From Caulobacteraceae bacterium (lineage in GTDB: Bacteria; Pseudomonadota; Alphaproteobacteria; Caulobacterales; Caulobacteraceae), in the NCBI GenBank assembly GCA_947475845.1, contig CANJMO010000017.1, positions 1-43,613 of the forward strand: a DNA stretch of 43,613 bases. The letters run 5' to 3'. Positions 3,659 to 40,513 of this stretch are shown piece after piece. The position numbers and the translations under genes are program-made. A model generated the notes under the pieces. The model was not told where the DNA came from, made no database searches, and saw nothing but the letters and a program-made list of their open reading frames with translations. How positions within the stretch are numbered: position 1 is the first letter of the stretch; every line of letters begins with the position of its first letter.

Positions 3659-5071
3659 ATGAAACCTGTTCCCGACACCGCTATCCATATCATCGGCGGC
3701 GGCCTGGCCGGCAGCGAGGCGGCCTGGCAGGCGGCCGAAGCTGGCGTGCCGGTGATCCTGCACGAGATGCGCCCGGTGCGCGGGACGGCGGCGCACCAGA
3801 CCGACGGCCTGGCGGAACTGGTCTGCTCCAACTCGTTCCGCTCCGACGACTGGCAGTACAACGCCGTCGGCCTGCTGCACGCCGAGATGCGCCGGATGGG
3901 CTCGCTGATCCTGGCCTGCGCCGACGTCAACCAGGTGCCCGCCGGGGGCGCGCTGGCGGTTGACCGCGACGGTTTCTCGCAGGCGGTGACGGCCAAGCTG
4001 GAAGCGCATCCGCTAATCACCATCGAACGGCAGGAGGTCGCCGGCCTGCCGCCCGCCGACTGGTCGAGCGTGATCGTGGCTACTGGGCCCCTCACCTCCC
4101 CCACTCTGTCTGAGGCGATCCTGGAGGCCACCGGCGAAGGCGCCCTGTCGTTCTTCGACGCCATCGCCCCGATCATCCACGCCGAGAGCATCGACATGGA
4201 CATCGCCTGGCGGCAGTCGCGCTACGACAAGGAAGGACCCGGCGGCGACGCGGCGGCATACATCAACTGCCCGATGGACAAGGCGCAGTACGAGGCTTTC
4301 GTCCAGGCGCTGATCGACGGGCCCAAGGCCGAGTTCAAGGATTGGGAGCACGTCCCCTATTTCGACGCTTGTCTGCCGATCGAGGTGATGGCCGAACGGG
4401 GATCGGAGACCCTGCGCTATGGGCCGATGAAGCCCAAGGGCCTGACCAATCCGCGCGACCCGATGGTGAAGTCCTACGCCGTGGTGCAACTGCGCCAGGA
4501 CAACAAGCTGGGCACCCTGTTCAATATGGTGGGGTTCCAGACCAAGCTGAAACATGGGGCGCAGGCGGAGATCTTCCGCACCATTCCGGGGCTGGAGGAC
4601 GCGCAGTTCGCGCGGCTGGGCGGGCTGCACCGCAACACCTTCATCAACTCGCCCCGCCTGCTGGACGGGACCCTGCGCCTGAAAGCCGACCCGCGCCTGC
4701 GCTTCGCGGGGCAGATCACCGGGGTCGAGGGCTATGTGGAGAGCGCCGCCGTCGGTCTGCTGGCCGGTCGCTTCGCCGCCGGCGAGCGGCTGGAACGGCC
4801 GATGACCCCGCCGCCGTTCTCGACTGCGCTGGGCGCCCTGATCGGCCACATCACCGGCGGTCATCTGGAAGGCGATCGTCTGGAAAAGGGGCCGCCGACC
4901 TTCCAGCCGATGAACATCAACTACGGCCTGCTGCCGCCGTTGGAGGCACCGCGCAAGGACGCCGACGGCAAGCCGATTCCGCTCAAGGAGCGCGGCCGCG
5001 CCCGCAAGAAACTGATGTCCGAGCGAGCGATGCGTGATCTGGGGACGTGGTTGGCCGGGCGGGCCGAGTAA
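3659..5071 (+). CDS. trmFO: TrmFO, folate/FAD-dependent tRNA (uracil-54-C5) methyltransferase
   Basis: Makes 5-methyluridine at position 54 of the tRNA T-loop using methylenetetrahydrofolate as carbon donor and FADH2 as reductant; cytoplasmic. The 470-residue length fits the family. N-terminal FAD motif [12 protein letters not shown] (residues 10-21), [15 protein letters not shown] just after it, and the [12 protein letters not shown] block holding a conserved cysteine near residue 56. The later [15 protein letters not shown] and [10 protein letters not shown] blocks are typical of TrmFO. It starts at the ATG heading MKPVPDT; the Shine-Dalgarno is weak. It lies beside the SQS-like/Mth938/SecDF block, as I recall for other alphaproteobacteria, but here three unrelated genes intervene. 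Confidence 0.96.
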
Positions 5072-9872: not shown

Positions 9873-10820
9873 TTAGGGGCGCGGCGGAAGCGGCTTGGCC
9901 GGTTCGTCGTCGCCGCGCTTGGCGCCCCACACCAGGATGATCGGCAGGGCGACGTAGATCGACGAATAGGTGCCGATGATGATCCCGAACACCATGGCGA
10001 ACACCAGGGGGAACAGGGTCGGGCCGCCCATGAACAGCATGCCGGCCAGGGCCAGCAGGGCGGTGGAGCCGGTGATCAGGGTGCGCGACAGACGCTCGTT
10101 CTCGGACAGGTCGATGATGTCGCGCAGAGTGGTGCGCTTATATTTGCGCAGGTTCTCGCGCAGCCGGTCGAAGGTGATGACCTTCTCGTTCATCGAGTAG
10201 CCGATGATGGTCAGCAAGGCGGCGATCGAGGTCATCGAGAACTCGATCTGCAGGGCCGACAGGATGCCCACCGTCAGGATCAGGTCGTGGAAGATGGCGA
10301 TCACCGCGCCCAGGCCGAACTGCAGCTGGAAGCGGAACCAGATGTAGACGAGCATCAGCAGGATGGCCAAGCCCAGCGCCATCAGGCCGGACGAGAACAG
10401 CTCGCCGGAGACCTTGGCCCCGACCACTTCGACCCGCTTGAACTGGATGCCGGGGAATTCCTTGCTGAGGGCGGCCTTCAGCGGGATCACCGCCGCCATC
10501 GGATCGGCGCTCTCGGCCGGGCGGAAGCGCAGCAGGGCGTCGTTGGGGCCGCCGAAGCCCTGGACCTGGGCGTCGTGCAGGCCCGCGGTCGACAGAGCCG
10601 CCCGCAGCTGCGCCAGGGGCGCGGCGCCCGGGGTGTGGATTTCGATCAGGGTGCCGCCCTTGAAGTCGGTGCCGAAGTTCAGGCCGAGGGTGAAGAAGCA
10701 GATCACCGAGGCGATCACCGCCAGGCCGGACACAATGGCGGCGTAGGGCGCCAGAGCCGTGAACCTGAAGTGGGTCTGGGCCGGGACGAACTTGATCAGG
10801 GGCCAGAAGGAGCTGCTCAC
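9873..10820 (-). CDS. secF: SecF, protein translocase accessory subunit
   Basis: Inner-membrane RND-family subunit of 315 residues. With SecD and YajC it uses the proton-motive force to aid late steps of Sec export. Signature GLNFGTDFKGGTLIEI lies at residues 48-63, followed by a periplasmic segment and a five-helix membrane block containing SIAALLTIIGYSMNEKVITF and FDRLRENLRKYK near residues 208-235. Length and topology are normal. It begins 13 bases after the secD stop with AGGAG just upstream, and ends immediately before the Mth938-like gene. Confidence 0.97.
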   Translation of the reverse strand: MSSSFWPLIKFVPAQTHFRFTALAPYAAIVSGLAVIASVICFFTLGLNFGTDFKGGTLIEIHTPGAAPLAQLRAALSTAGLHDAQVQGFGGPNDALLRFRPAESADPMAAVIPLKAALSKEFPGIQFKRVEVVGAKVSGELFSSGLMALGLAILLMLVYIWFRFQLQFGLGAVIAIFHDLILTVGILSALQIEFSMTSIAALLTIIGYSMNEKVITFDRLRENLRKYKRTTLRDIIDLSENERLSRTLITGSTALLALAGMLFMGGPTLFPLVFAMVFGIIIGTYSSIYVALPIILVWGAKRGDDEPAKPLPPRP

Positions 10821-38607: not shown

Positions 38608-38701
38608 GGGGCGGCTCCGGCGGCGGCTGGGCCAAGCGTGGCCGTGTGCCTAGATGGGGTAGCCGCCTTCTATAGCCAAGTGCGGCGCTGTTTCGAACCC
38701 G

Positions 38702-39445
38702 TCAGAGCGAAACCAGGCCGCCATCGACGAACAGCTCGGCGGCGGTGGTGAAGGTGGCGTCCACCGCCATGTACAGGATCGCCTTGGCCACTTCCTCGGG
38801 CTCGCCCATGCGGCCCATGGGAATGCGGGTCTTGGAGCCGGTGACGAAGGCTTCCTTCTGTTCGGGGGTGAAGTCCTTGTCGAGCAGGGGCGTGCCCACC
38901 GGGCCGGGGCTGACGGTGTTTACGCGGATGCCGCGGGCCATCAGCTCCTTGGCGAAGGTGCGGCCGAAGTTGCGCAGCGCCGCCTTGGTGGCGCCGTAGA
39001 CCGTGCCGCCGGGAAGGCCGCCGGCGACCCCGGCCACCGACGAGGTCAGCACGATGGCCGAGCCGTCGGGCATGATCGGGGTGGCGTGCTTCAAGAGGAA
39101 GAACGGCCCCTTCACATTGATGTCGAACTGGCGGTCGAAGAAGGCCTCGTCGATCTCGGCGACCGGCTTGAAGCCGGCGACCCCGGCGTTGATCACCAGC
39201 ACGTCGATGCGGCCGTGCTTTGCCTGAACCTGATCGACCAGAGCCTTGGTGGCGGCCACGTCGCCGGCGTTGGACACCACCACCTCGATTCCCGGCAGGC
39301 CGGGCTTGGCGGCGTCGACCGATTTCTGGCTGGAGCCGGTGACGATCACCGTGGCGCCCTCTTGCTGGAACAGCAGGGCCGTCTCGAAGCCGATGCCGGT
39401 GGTGCCGCCGGTGATGAGCGCGATCTTGCCGTCGAGTTTCGCCAT
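38702..39445 (-). CDS. Short-chain dehydrogenase/reductase
   Basis: NAD(P)-dependent oxidoreductase of 247 residues. Cofactor motif TGGTTGIGFETA (residues 12-23), LVINAGVAGF near 79, catalytic Ser in VLTSSVAG near 131, YGATKAAL (Tyr/Lys) near 147-154, and NTVSPGPVGTPLL near 179. ATG 39445 has GGAGG seven to eleven bases upstream; an earlier in-frame start would add 14 residues. Substrate not deducible. Its upstream region contains the triple TGTGCGCA repeat shared with the divergent secreted-protein gene. Confidence 0.93.
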   Translation of the reverse strand: MAKLDGKIALITGGTTGIGFETALLFQQEGATVIVTGSSQKSVDAAKPGLPGIEVVVSNAGDVAATKALVDQVQAKHGRIDVLVINAGVAGFKPVAEIDEAFFDRQFDINVKGPFFLLKHATPIMPDGSAIVLTSSVAGVAGGLPGGTVYGATKAALRNFGRTFAKELMARGIRVNTVSPGPVGTPLLDKDFTPEQKEAFVTGSKTRIPMGRMGEPEEVAKAILYMAVDATFTTAAELFVDGGLVSL

Positions 39446-39528
39446 GAGGGCCTCCTGCCTGCGCGGCAGCTTTGCCGTGACGACCAAAGGGTTGTCCAGG
39501 ACCGATTATCAGACACCCGTCGACAGCC

Positions 39529-39560
39529 TGTGCGCACAATTGTGCGCAAGGTTGTGCGCA
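39529..39560. repeat. Triple TGTGCGCA direct repeat, 12-bp period
   Basis: Three identical octamers TGTGCGCA start at 39529, 39541 and 39553, each followed by a different four-base spacer (CAAT, AGGT, TATC). The first two also form a perfect palindrome across 39531-39548. The regular 12-bp spacing in a 255-bp divergent promoter gap (SDR to the left, secreted protein to the right) fits an operator for a multimeric regulator. Confidence 0.75.
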
Positions 39561-39700
39561 TATCTTCGCGGCCCGTCTTGCCAGGACTGATTTGCTAGGT
39601 CATCACAGGCGAGCCCCCCGGCGAAGATCGGGCGCCCGAAACAATAAGACGATTGCTCTGCAGTCCGGGTTCGATCCGGCGCAGACAGGAGGAGACCGAA

Positions 39701-40513
39701 ATGCGCCTGATCCTGGCCCTGTTGGCCGCGTCCACTCTGACCGCCGCCGCCGTTCCCGGCATGTCTGCCACGGCGAAGAAGGCGCCCGCCGCCGTGAAGC
39801 TGCACAAGGAGCCGGGCTGGGGCAAACCCGCCGGCCTGGTGCCGCACGACGACTGGAACAGCACCTACCAGCCCATCGAGAACAACATGTTCGACAACAG
39901 CCGCGGCCGGCTGAACCCCAACCTCGAGCGCGAATACCCGCCCTATAAGCCCGACTGGGAAGCCCGCTACGCGGCCATCTACGCCAACACCAAGGCGGGC
40001 ATCAACAACGACCCGACCGCCACCTGCCTGCCCGGCGGCATGCCGCGCATCATGGCCAATCCGCGCGCCCAGGAGATCATCGTCACGCCGCAGCAGGTGA
40101 CGATCATCAAGGAAACCCAGACCATCGTCCGACGCATCTGGATCAATCGCGAAATGCCGCCCGAAGGGGACGACTCGCCCGATCCCACCTTCAACGGCTA
40201 CTCGGTCGGTCACTGGGAAGGCGACACCCTGGTGGTCGACACCAAGTACCTGCGCGGCGACACCAACTTCGACCGCACCGGCGCGCCGCACAGCGACAAG
40301 ATGACGTTGCACGAACGCATGCGCCTGAAGACCCCAAACATCTGGGAAGACGTGATCACCGTCACAGACCCGGTGGCCTTCACCAAGCCCTGGACGGTCA
40401 CCCGCACCTATGAACGCAAGGCCGACTGGGACACGCAGGAGTACGCTTGCGAGGACAATAATCGCAACGCGCTCGCCGACGGCAAGACCGGCGTCACACC
40501 GTCGAAGAAGTAG
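39701..40513 (+). CDS. Secreted protein of unknown function
   Basis: Exported protein of 270 residues. ATG 39701 has an AGGAGGAG site upstream and opens a signal peptide (RLILALLAASTLTAAAVPGM, cleavage near residue 22). The mature protein has recurring blocks ATCLPGGMPRIMANP, then VTPQQVTIIKETQ, NREMPPEGDDSPDPTFNGY and HWEGDTLVVDTKYL. I recall this as a family common in TonB-rich alphaproteobacteria but can give no name. No membrane anchor is seen. It diverges from the SDR gene across the triple-repeat operator-like region. Confidence 0.88.
   Translation: MRLILALLAASTLTAAAVPGMSATAKKAPAAVKLHKEPGWGKPAGLVPHDDWNSTYQPIENNMFDNSRGRLNPNLEREYPPYKPDWEARYAAIYANTKAGINNDPTATCLPGGMPRIMANPRAQEIIVTPQQVTIIKETQTIVRRIWINREMPPEGDDSPDPTFNGYSVGHWEGDTLVVDTKYLRGDTNFDRTGAPHSDKMTLHERMRLKTPNIWEDVITVTDPVAFTKPWTVTRTYERKADWDTQEYACEDNNRNALADGKTGVTPSKK

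Follow-up and report, generated by a model that had tools for sequence, protein, structure and literature searches.

Three identical copies of the octamer TGTGCGCA stand at exact 12-bp steps between two divergent genes of a Caulobacteraceae bacterium. The array they form is ordinary in kind, lineage-specific and operator-like. We give about an even chance to the reading in which it is a lineage-specific operator for a dimeric helix-turn-helix regulator, lying in the promoter region of an SDR gene and a secreted-protein gene and IclR-like in its working. According to this reading, the three 9-bp half-sites, one inverted and two direct, would be recognised by a helix-turn-helix protein acting as one dimer or a pair of dimers; one dimer would occupy the 18-bp palindrome formed by the first two boxes, the third box would provide a further contact, and the bound regulator would govern the SDR promoter, perhaps together with the divergent one.

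The boxes and their surroundings

The window, by which we mean the whole stretch of 43,613 nucleotides that was analysed, contains the following features.

38702-39445, minus strand: SDR-family oxidoreductase gene, 247 aa (PF13561, 7.6e-57), ATG at 39445
39496-39507, plus strand: CCAGGACCGATT, left copy of the 12-bp direct repeat around the array
39510-39598 (approximate bounds), no strand: 85-bp stretch without counterpart in the same-genus genome G025, array included
39529-39536, plus strand: octamer 1, TGTGCGCA, inside the 10-bp palindrome TGTGCGCACA
39531-39548, no strand: perfect 18-bp palindrome TGCGCACAATTGTGCGCA, the inverted box pair CGCAC-AATT-GTGCG
39541-39548, plus strand: octamer 2, TGTGCGCA
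39552-39560, plus strand: 9-bp box 3, TTGTGCGCA, repeating 39540-39548 in the same direction
39553-39560, plus strand: octamer 3, TGTGCGCA
39581-39592, plus strand: CCAGGACTGATT, right copy of the 12-bp direct repeat around the array
39701-40513, plus strand: secreted-protein gene, 270 aa, ATG at 39701, signal-peptide-like start by eye

The letters confirm what the sequence-only reading had described, namely three octamers starting at 39529, 39541 and 39553 (steps of 12 and 12 bp) with differing spacers, CAAT and then AGGT, and a perfect 18-bp palindrome made by the first two at 39531-39548. Read as 9-bp units, TTGTGCGCA stands inverted at 39531-39539 and direct at 39540-39548 and 39552-39560, three copies in all. 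All 3 x 8 octamer positions are invariant, whereas the spacers are unlike each other, a combination that would argue against a young neutral tandem repeat or duplication. That reading had also named the neighbours, a divergent SDR gene and secreted-protein gene, and the reading frames bear this out: the two starts lie 255 bp apart with the array inside the gap, although mechanical reading frames also cover the array itself. No sigma-70 consensus promoter was found in 39430-39720, no tRNA gene is called in the window, and by eye no regulator gene adjoins the array among the window's reading frames. A T-arm-like stretch at about 39661-39685 was considered as a tRNA remnant and rejected, as it is not called as a tRNA and is not kept in the sister species.

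The secreted protein has no match in Pfam or NCBIfam. Its family is strongly expanded in the genus, with at least 17 matches in each of three genus genomes, and in a plasmid collection eight records match it, all of them Novosphingobium, Croceibacterium or Sphingobium. Elsewhere in the window, at about 38640-38680 and upstream of a minus-strand glutathione-reductase-like gene, stands CTTGG...CCCCATCT, which we take to resemble an alphaproteobacterial RpoH (heat-shock) promoter; the sister also has CCCCATCT upstream of the same gene.

The palindromic letters raise the question of a structure. Positions 39523-39555 can be drawn as a bulged stem-loop, a hairpin or attenuator that would function either at the RNA level or as a cruciform, and the DNA fold of 39520-39570 reaches -13.9 kcal/mol against -8.76 (sd 1.99) for shuffles (z -2.58; 2 of 200 as good). 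There is no Rfam match up to E 1, no terminator-like site was found, and nothing points to transcription of the stretch; we hold this explanation to be highly improbable.

How often such arrays occur

Is the array more than an incidental cluster, picked out among many windows, of an octamer whose core, TGCGCA, is palindromic? On both strands the window has five TGTGCGCA against 2.26 expected from shuffles, and 5 of 100 shuffles reach five; the array accounts for four of them. In a sample of 443,613 bases, made up of the window and 20 stretches of 20 kb from the same genome, the octamer occurs nine times in all, four of these in the other 400 kb. For the estimate of rarity an array was defined as three exact copies of a word of eight letters or more, evenly spaced 9-30 bp apart. 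Six such arrays are found in the real sample, the window's own among them, and the steps of the remaining ones (9, 9, 12, 21 and 24) are all divisible by 3, as expected of coding repeats. Third-order Markov sequence of 6 x 443,613 bases contains none. Among 1000 third-order Markov windows of 43.6 kb, 10 hold some triple octamer, which puts the chance of any such array at about 1% for one window, and the window's very array does not occur in any of the 1000. Perfect palindromes of at least 18 bp number 12 in 463,613 bases of the genome, the window's own counted. Thus the array is unusual, though not extreme, and the 18-bp palindrome taken alone is unremarkable, since such palindromes are common here. 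The earlier judgement that so regular a run is unlikely by chance holds for a single window and weakens across a scan of many windows. The explanation by chance draws on the 10 simulated windows and the 12 palindromes, on the failure of the array to be kept in the ortholog and on the lack of a second array as good in the genome; it is opposed by the intergenic position, by the combination of a triple box with a perfect palindrome, by the absence of this very array from all simulated windows and by a box pair common to regulator promoters of relatives. We consider chance unlikely.

A search of the 2.65-Mb genome gave no second TGTGCGCA-N4-TGTGCGCA at 0 or 1 mismatch. With the limit raised to 3 mismatches it gave 16 forward and 13 reverse places, array included, versus 4 and 4 for the reversed pattern. 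Three TGCGCA hexamers at 12-bp steps recur elsewhere in the genome only with two or more mismatches, and both 2-mismatch places overlap, at 10121-10162 of the window; this stretch reads CGCGCA/TGCGCT/TGCGCA/CGCGCA at 12-bp steps and by eye lies inside a 315-aa secF-like frame. Because the genome contains no second array as good, the suggestion that the array is a site of a regulator with many targets finds no support at the thresholds used. A dispersed hairpin repeat was likewise considered and set aside: a BLAST of 61 bp (39515-39575) with fetched genome stretches gave no second copy among the matches listed. A similar-looking GCGCA-rich repeat of about 50 bp was seen twice within 100 bp in another genome (G412 contig C427, L208 about 1350-1440). 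A text search of papers gave no hit for the array's 20-mer or 18-mer; either of two 10-mers occurs in 19 papers, unrelated to judge by their titles.

Two same-strand octamers within 40 bp were found at none of 80 loci with SDR relatives, 12 of which had their upstream DNA read. A linked SDR regulator was sought by eye among the neighbours of nine loci (L031-L039) and rejected, no regulator being a constant neighbour. At up to 1 mismatch TGTGCGCA-N4-TGTGCGCA is present in 16 of 199 family genomes, the source genome among them. A conserved family regulon was rejected as well: among the 18 loci in the other genomes (L110-L127) only L120 and L121 are intergenic by eye and the rest are mostly coding, and the intergenic call for these two is a judgement, as mechanical reading frames run over them too. 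At L120 (about 1500-1530; G153 contig C11), GCGCACAAC repeats with a 12-bp step stand upstream of a gene for an HTH_3-domain protein. The three-box pattern at up to 3 mismatches is found at 12 places in 10 of 398 order genomes (ten of the places were read, the window's own among them), and at class level in 1 of 385, the source genome. Outside the bacterial genomes, two viral contigs, L257 and L258, have three TGTGCGCA at 12 bp. The former (IMGVR_UViG_3300031951_021131) carries an independent array at 3959-3990 with three TGTGCGCA at 12-bp steps, which includes the window's exact 18-bp palindrome and matches the window's array exactly over its first 20 bp.

Candidate readers of the boxes

The inverted pair TGCGCAC-N4-GTGCGCA is found in 17 of 390 family genomes, at one place each, the source genome among them. 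Fifteen of the 17 spacers contain G or C, and at each of these 15 a mechanical frame of at least 100 codons covers the site, a weak sign of coding in DNA so rich in GC. The spacer consists of A and T only in the window and in one other genome, G190 (L121). There the site lies between a divergent IclR regulator of the PcaR/PcaU/PobR family (TIGR02431, 314.9 bits against a cut-off of 284.75) and a pcaI-like CoA-transferase gene, with the third box preceding the pair, TGTACGCT-A-TGCGCACA-TT-AGTGCGCA. With the G190 protein as query (E <= 1e-60), 3 of 75 genomes of that genus have a match, its own genome counted, the new ones being G977 and G157. Their regulators, 65%-identical and found by protein similarity, not by motif, both have the upstream boxes TTCGCACA-AA-TGTTCGCA-T-TGCGCACA, and that of G977 passes the TIGR02431 cut-off at 333.2 bits. 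Given the boxes at these three promoters, PcaR-type regulators of the bacterial family appear to use TGTNCGCA.

According to PMC8222616, the sites of 32 IclR-family orthologous groups consist of three boxes that alternate in direction, and those of PcaU, PobR and HmgR carry an additional external half-site as a direct repeat. The window's array resembles these operators in its third, external half-site and in its three GTNCG-type half-sites, the consensus core given there being present in all three TGTGCGCA boxes. It resembles the PcaR-family promoters of the three relatives in the 4-bp gap of its inverted pair (CGCAC-AATT-GTGCG): the window's TGCGCACA-AT-TGTGCGCA has 0 mismatches to TGCGNACANNTGTNCGCA, with the spacing seen in the relatives. 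Pairs of this kind at up to 2 mismatches number seven in 463,613 bases of the genome versus one in the reversed control; two of the seven are the array's, and the other five carry 2 mismatches each. Unlike the boxes of the three relatives, which alternate at 9-10 bp, the third box of the window has the same direction as the second and follows at +12 bp, and the array holds no forward-then-reverse box pair at up to 3 mismatches. It also differs from PcaR-type sites in having no adjoining regulator gene, as judged by eye.

Which protein would read the array? The one IclR-family gene found in the genome, C7:48228-48962, is the best candidate, though a guess. Its best NCBIfam match is the PcaR/PcaU/PobR family TIGR02431 at 249.9 bits, below the cut-off, and the recognition helix is near-identical, TGLARATARR in the C7 protein versus TGLARAAARR. 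The gene's neighbours are MFS, alcohol dehydrogenase, SDR and cupin genes and two paralogues of the secreted family, one of them judged by eye. Around it, in the 20 kb of C7:38000-57999, there is no box pair at up to 2 mismatches, the best being three with 3. The upstream stretches of 15 secreted-family paralogues contain no octamer and a single pair at 3 mismatches; adding five stretches from relatives leaves that total at one, the same as in the reversed control. To judge by its letters, the array may work like an IclR-family three-box operator. Because its third box is direct at 12 bp and no pair at up to 2 mismatches lies near the C7 gene, we do not claim membership.

An 18-bp palindrome with an A/T centre and a further repeat suits other dimeric helix-turn-helix families too. 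A regulator of a different class encoded elsewhere in the genome (TetR, MarR, GntR, or a response regulator on direct repeats) would fit such a site, and the IclR match is imperfect at the third box. PhoB/OmpR-type operators are phased direct repeats in promoters with an 11-bp step; the window shares with them phased direct repeats in a promoter region, and differs in its 12-bp step and in boxes with a palindromic core. Against a regulator of another class stand the want of an adjoining regulator gene (by eye), of a second array pointing to a family, and the fact that the related G153 array upstream of the HTH_3 protein is a single case. We regard it as a tenable yet rather less probable account than a reader that works in the IclR manner.

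The same step and unit are also met beside integrase-like genes or tRNA genes. In G340 contig C1 two TTGTGYGCA-like 12-bp-step arrays stand near 618285 and 708340 (L181, L185), about 90 kb apart, and one of them lies directly before an integrase-like gene, near a tRNA-Asp. Similar 12-bp-step repeats adjoin a tyrosine recombinase in L268 (near 326), a recombinase, judged by eye, in L265 (near 491) and a tRNA-Asp in L259 (near 12163). Possibly TTGTGYGCA-like repeats at 12-bp steps are a shared arm-type site of some integrases. Searches for further relatives of the G340 integrase gave, besides the query itself, 18 distant phage integrases, and two of their regions (L270, L271) were read; the stretches read contain no TTGTGYGCA unit, and the upstream flank of L271 carries a different word, CCCGCAACAA, three times at 12-bp steps. 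By eye, the listed frames around the phage arrays L257, L258, L260, L263 and L264 include no integrase.

On these grounds the window's array could be a mobile-element relic, arm-type (accessory) sites of a tyrosine integrase that remained after the element was lost. Its two direct TTGTGCGCA at 12 bp are spaced as in L268, the 9-bp unit and the step are those of the arrays at L265, L268 and G340, which are arm-type sites by inference, the 12-bp-step triple of L271 points the same way, and the array sits in an indel of about 85 bp with a 12-bp direct repeat on either side. Unlike those arrays, however, it has no integrase gene or tRNA beside it and its first box is inverted, and no mobile-element genes were seen nearby by eye. 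Just two tyrosine recombinases turned up in the genome, and XerD- or XerC-type models are their best matches. With no tRNA in the window and both recombinases XerC/XerD-like, the mobile-element explanation is weak here, and the lack of the unit in L270 and L271 and of integrases around the phage arrays also counts against it; we deem it distinctly improbable.

The sister species and the 85-bp difference

Three genomes of the genus were compared, the source genome among them, and only the source genome matches the intergenic DNA. The third genome, 79% complete, has no match to it. G025 keeps the SDR/secreted pair in order, the SDR region being 80% identical over 748 bp and the secreted protein 82% identical. 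Its intergenic region, which reads identical to that of the MAG Kiruna2_bin-3040 (L030), is 170 bp long, 85 bp shorter than the 255 bp of the window, and the array is absent from it. Conservation in orthologous regions, the check that the sequence-only reading had proposed for itself, thus goes against the array in the one syntenic relative found. The proposal of an operator array accordingly stands in part: the intergenic position, the invariant boxes with variable spacers and the IclR-like geometry speak for it, and the absence from the same-genus ortholog speaks against it.

The three 85-bp deletions that best fit the window to G025 are 39510-39594, 39511-39595 and 39514-39598. In a plain gapped alignment, instead, part of octamer 3 falls opposite TTGCGC / AGGTGTTGCGC of the sister, so that one degenerate box may predate the array. 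The bracketing repeat is 11/12 identical at a step of exactly 85 bp, with the array between its members; when the 255 bp are shuffled, 9 of 200 trials contain an 11/12 repeat somewhere, and deletion of one repeat unit (39496-39580) ranks 59th among 171 deletion positions. It is conceivable, though we think it improbable, that an insertion of about 85 bp, flanked by the 12-bp direct repeats, carried an operator array already phased at 12 bp into the SDR/secreted promoter of one species, and so put both genes under a regulator that binds mixed inverted and direct boxes, unlike the alternating three-box sites of the IclR family.

If no protein binds it, the array is an ordinary intergenic operator candidate. 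Should a protein bind it, it would illustrate on a small scale how a promoter is rewired between sister species, and it would offer the first clue to the regulation of an expanded gene family that has no match in Pfam or NCBIfam.
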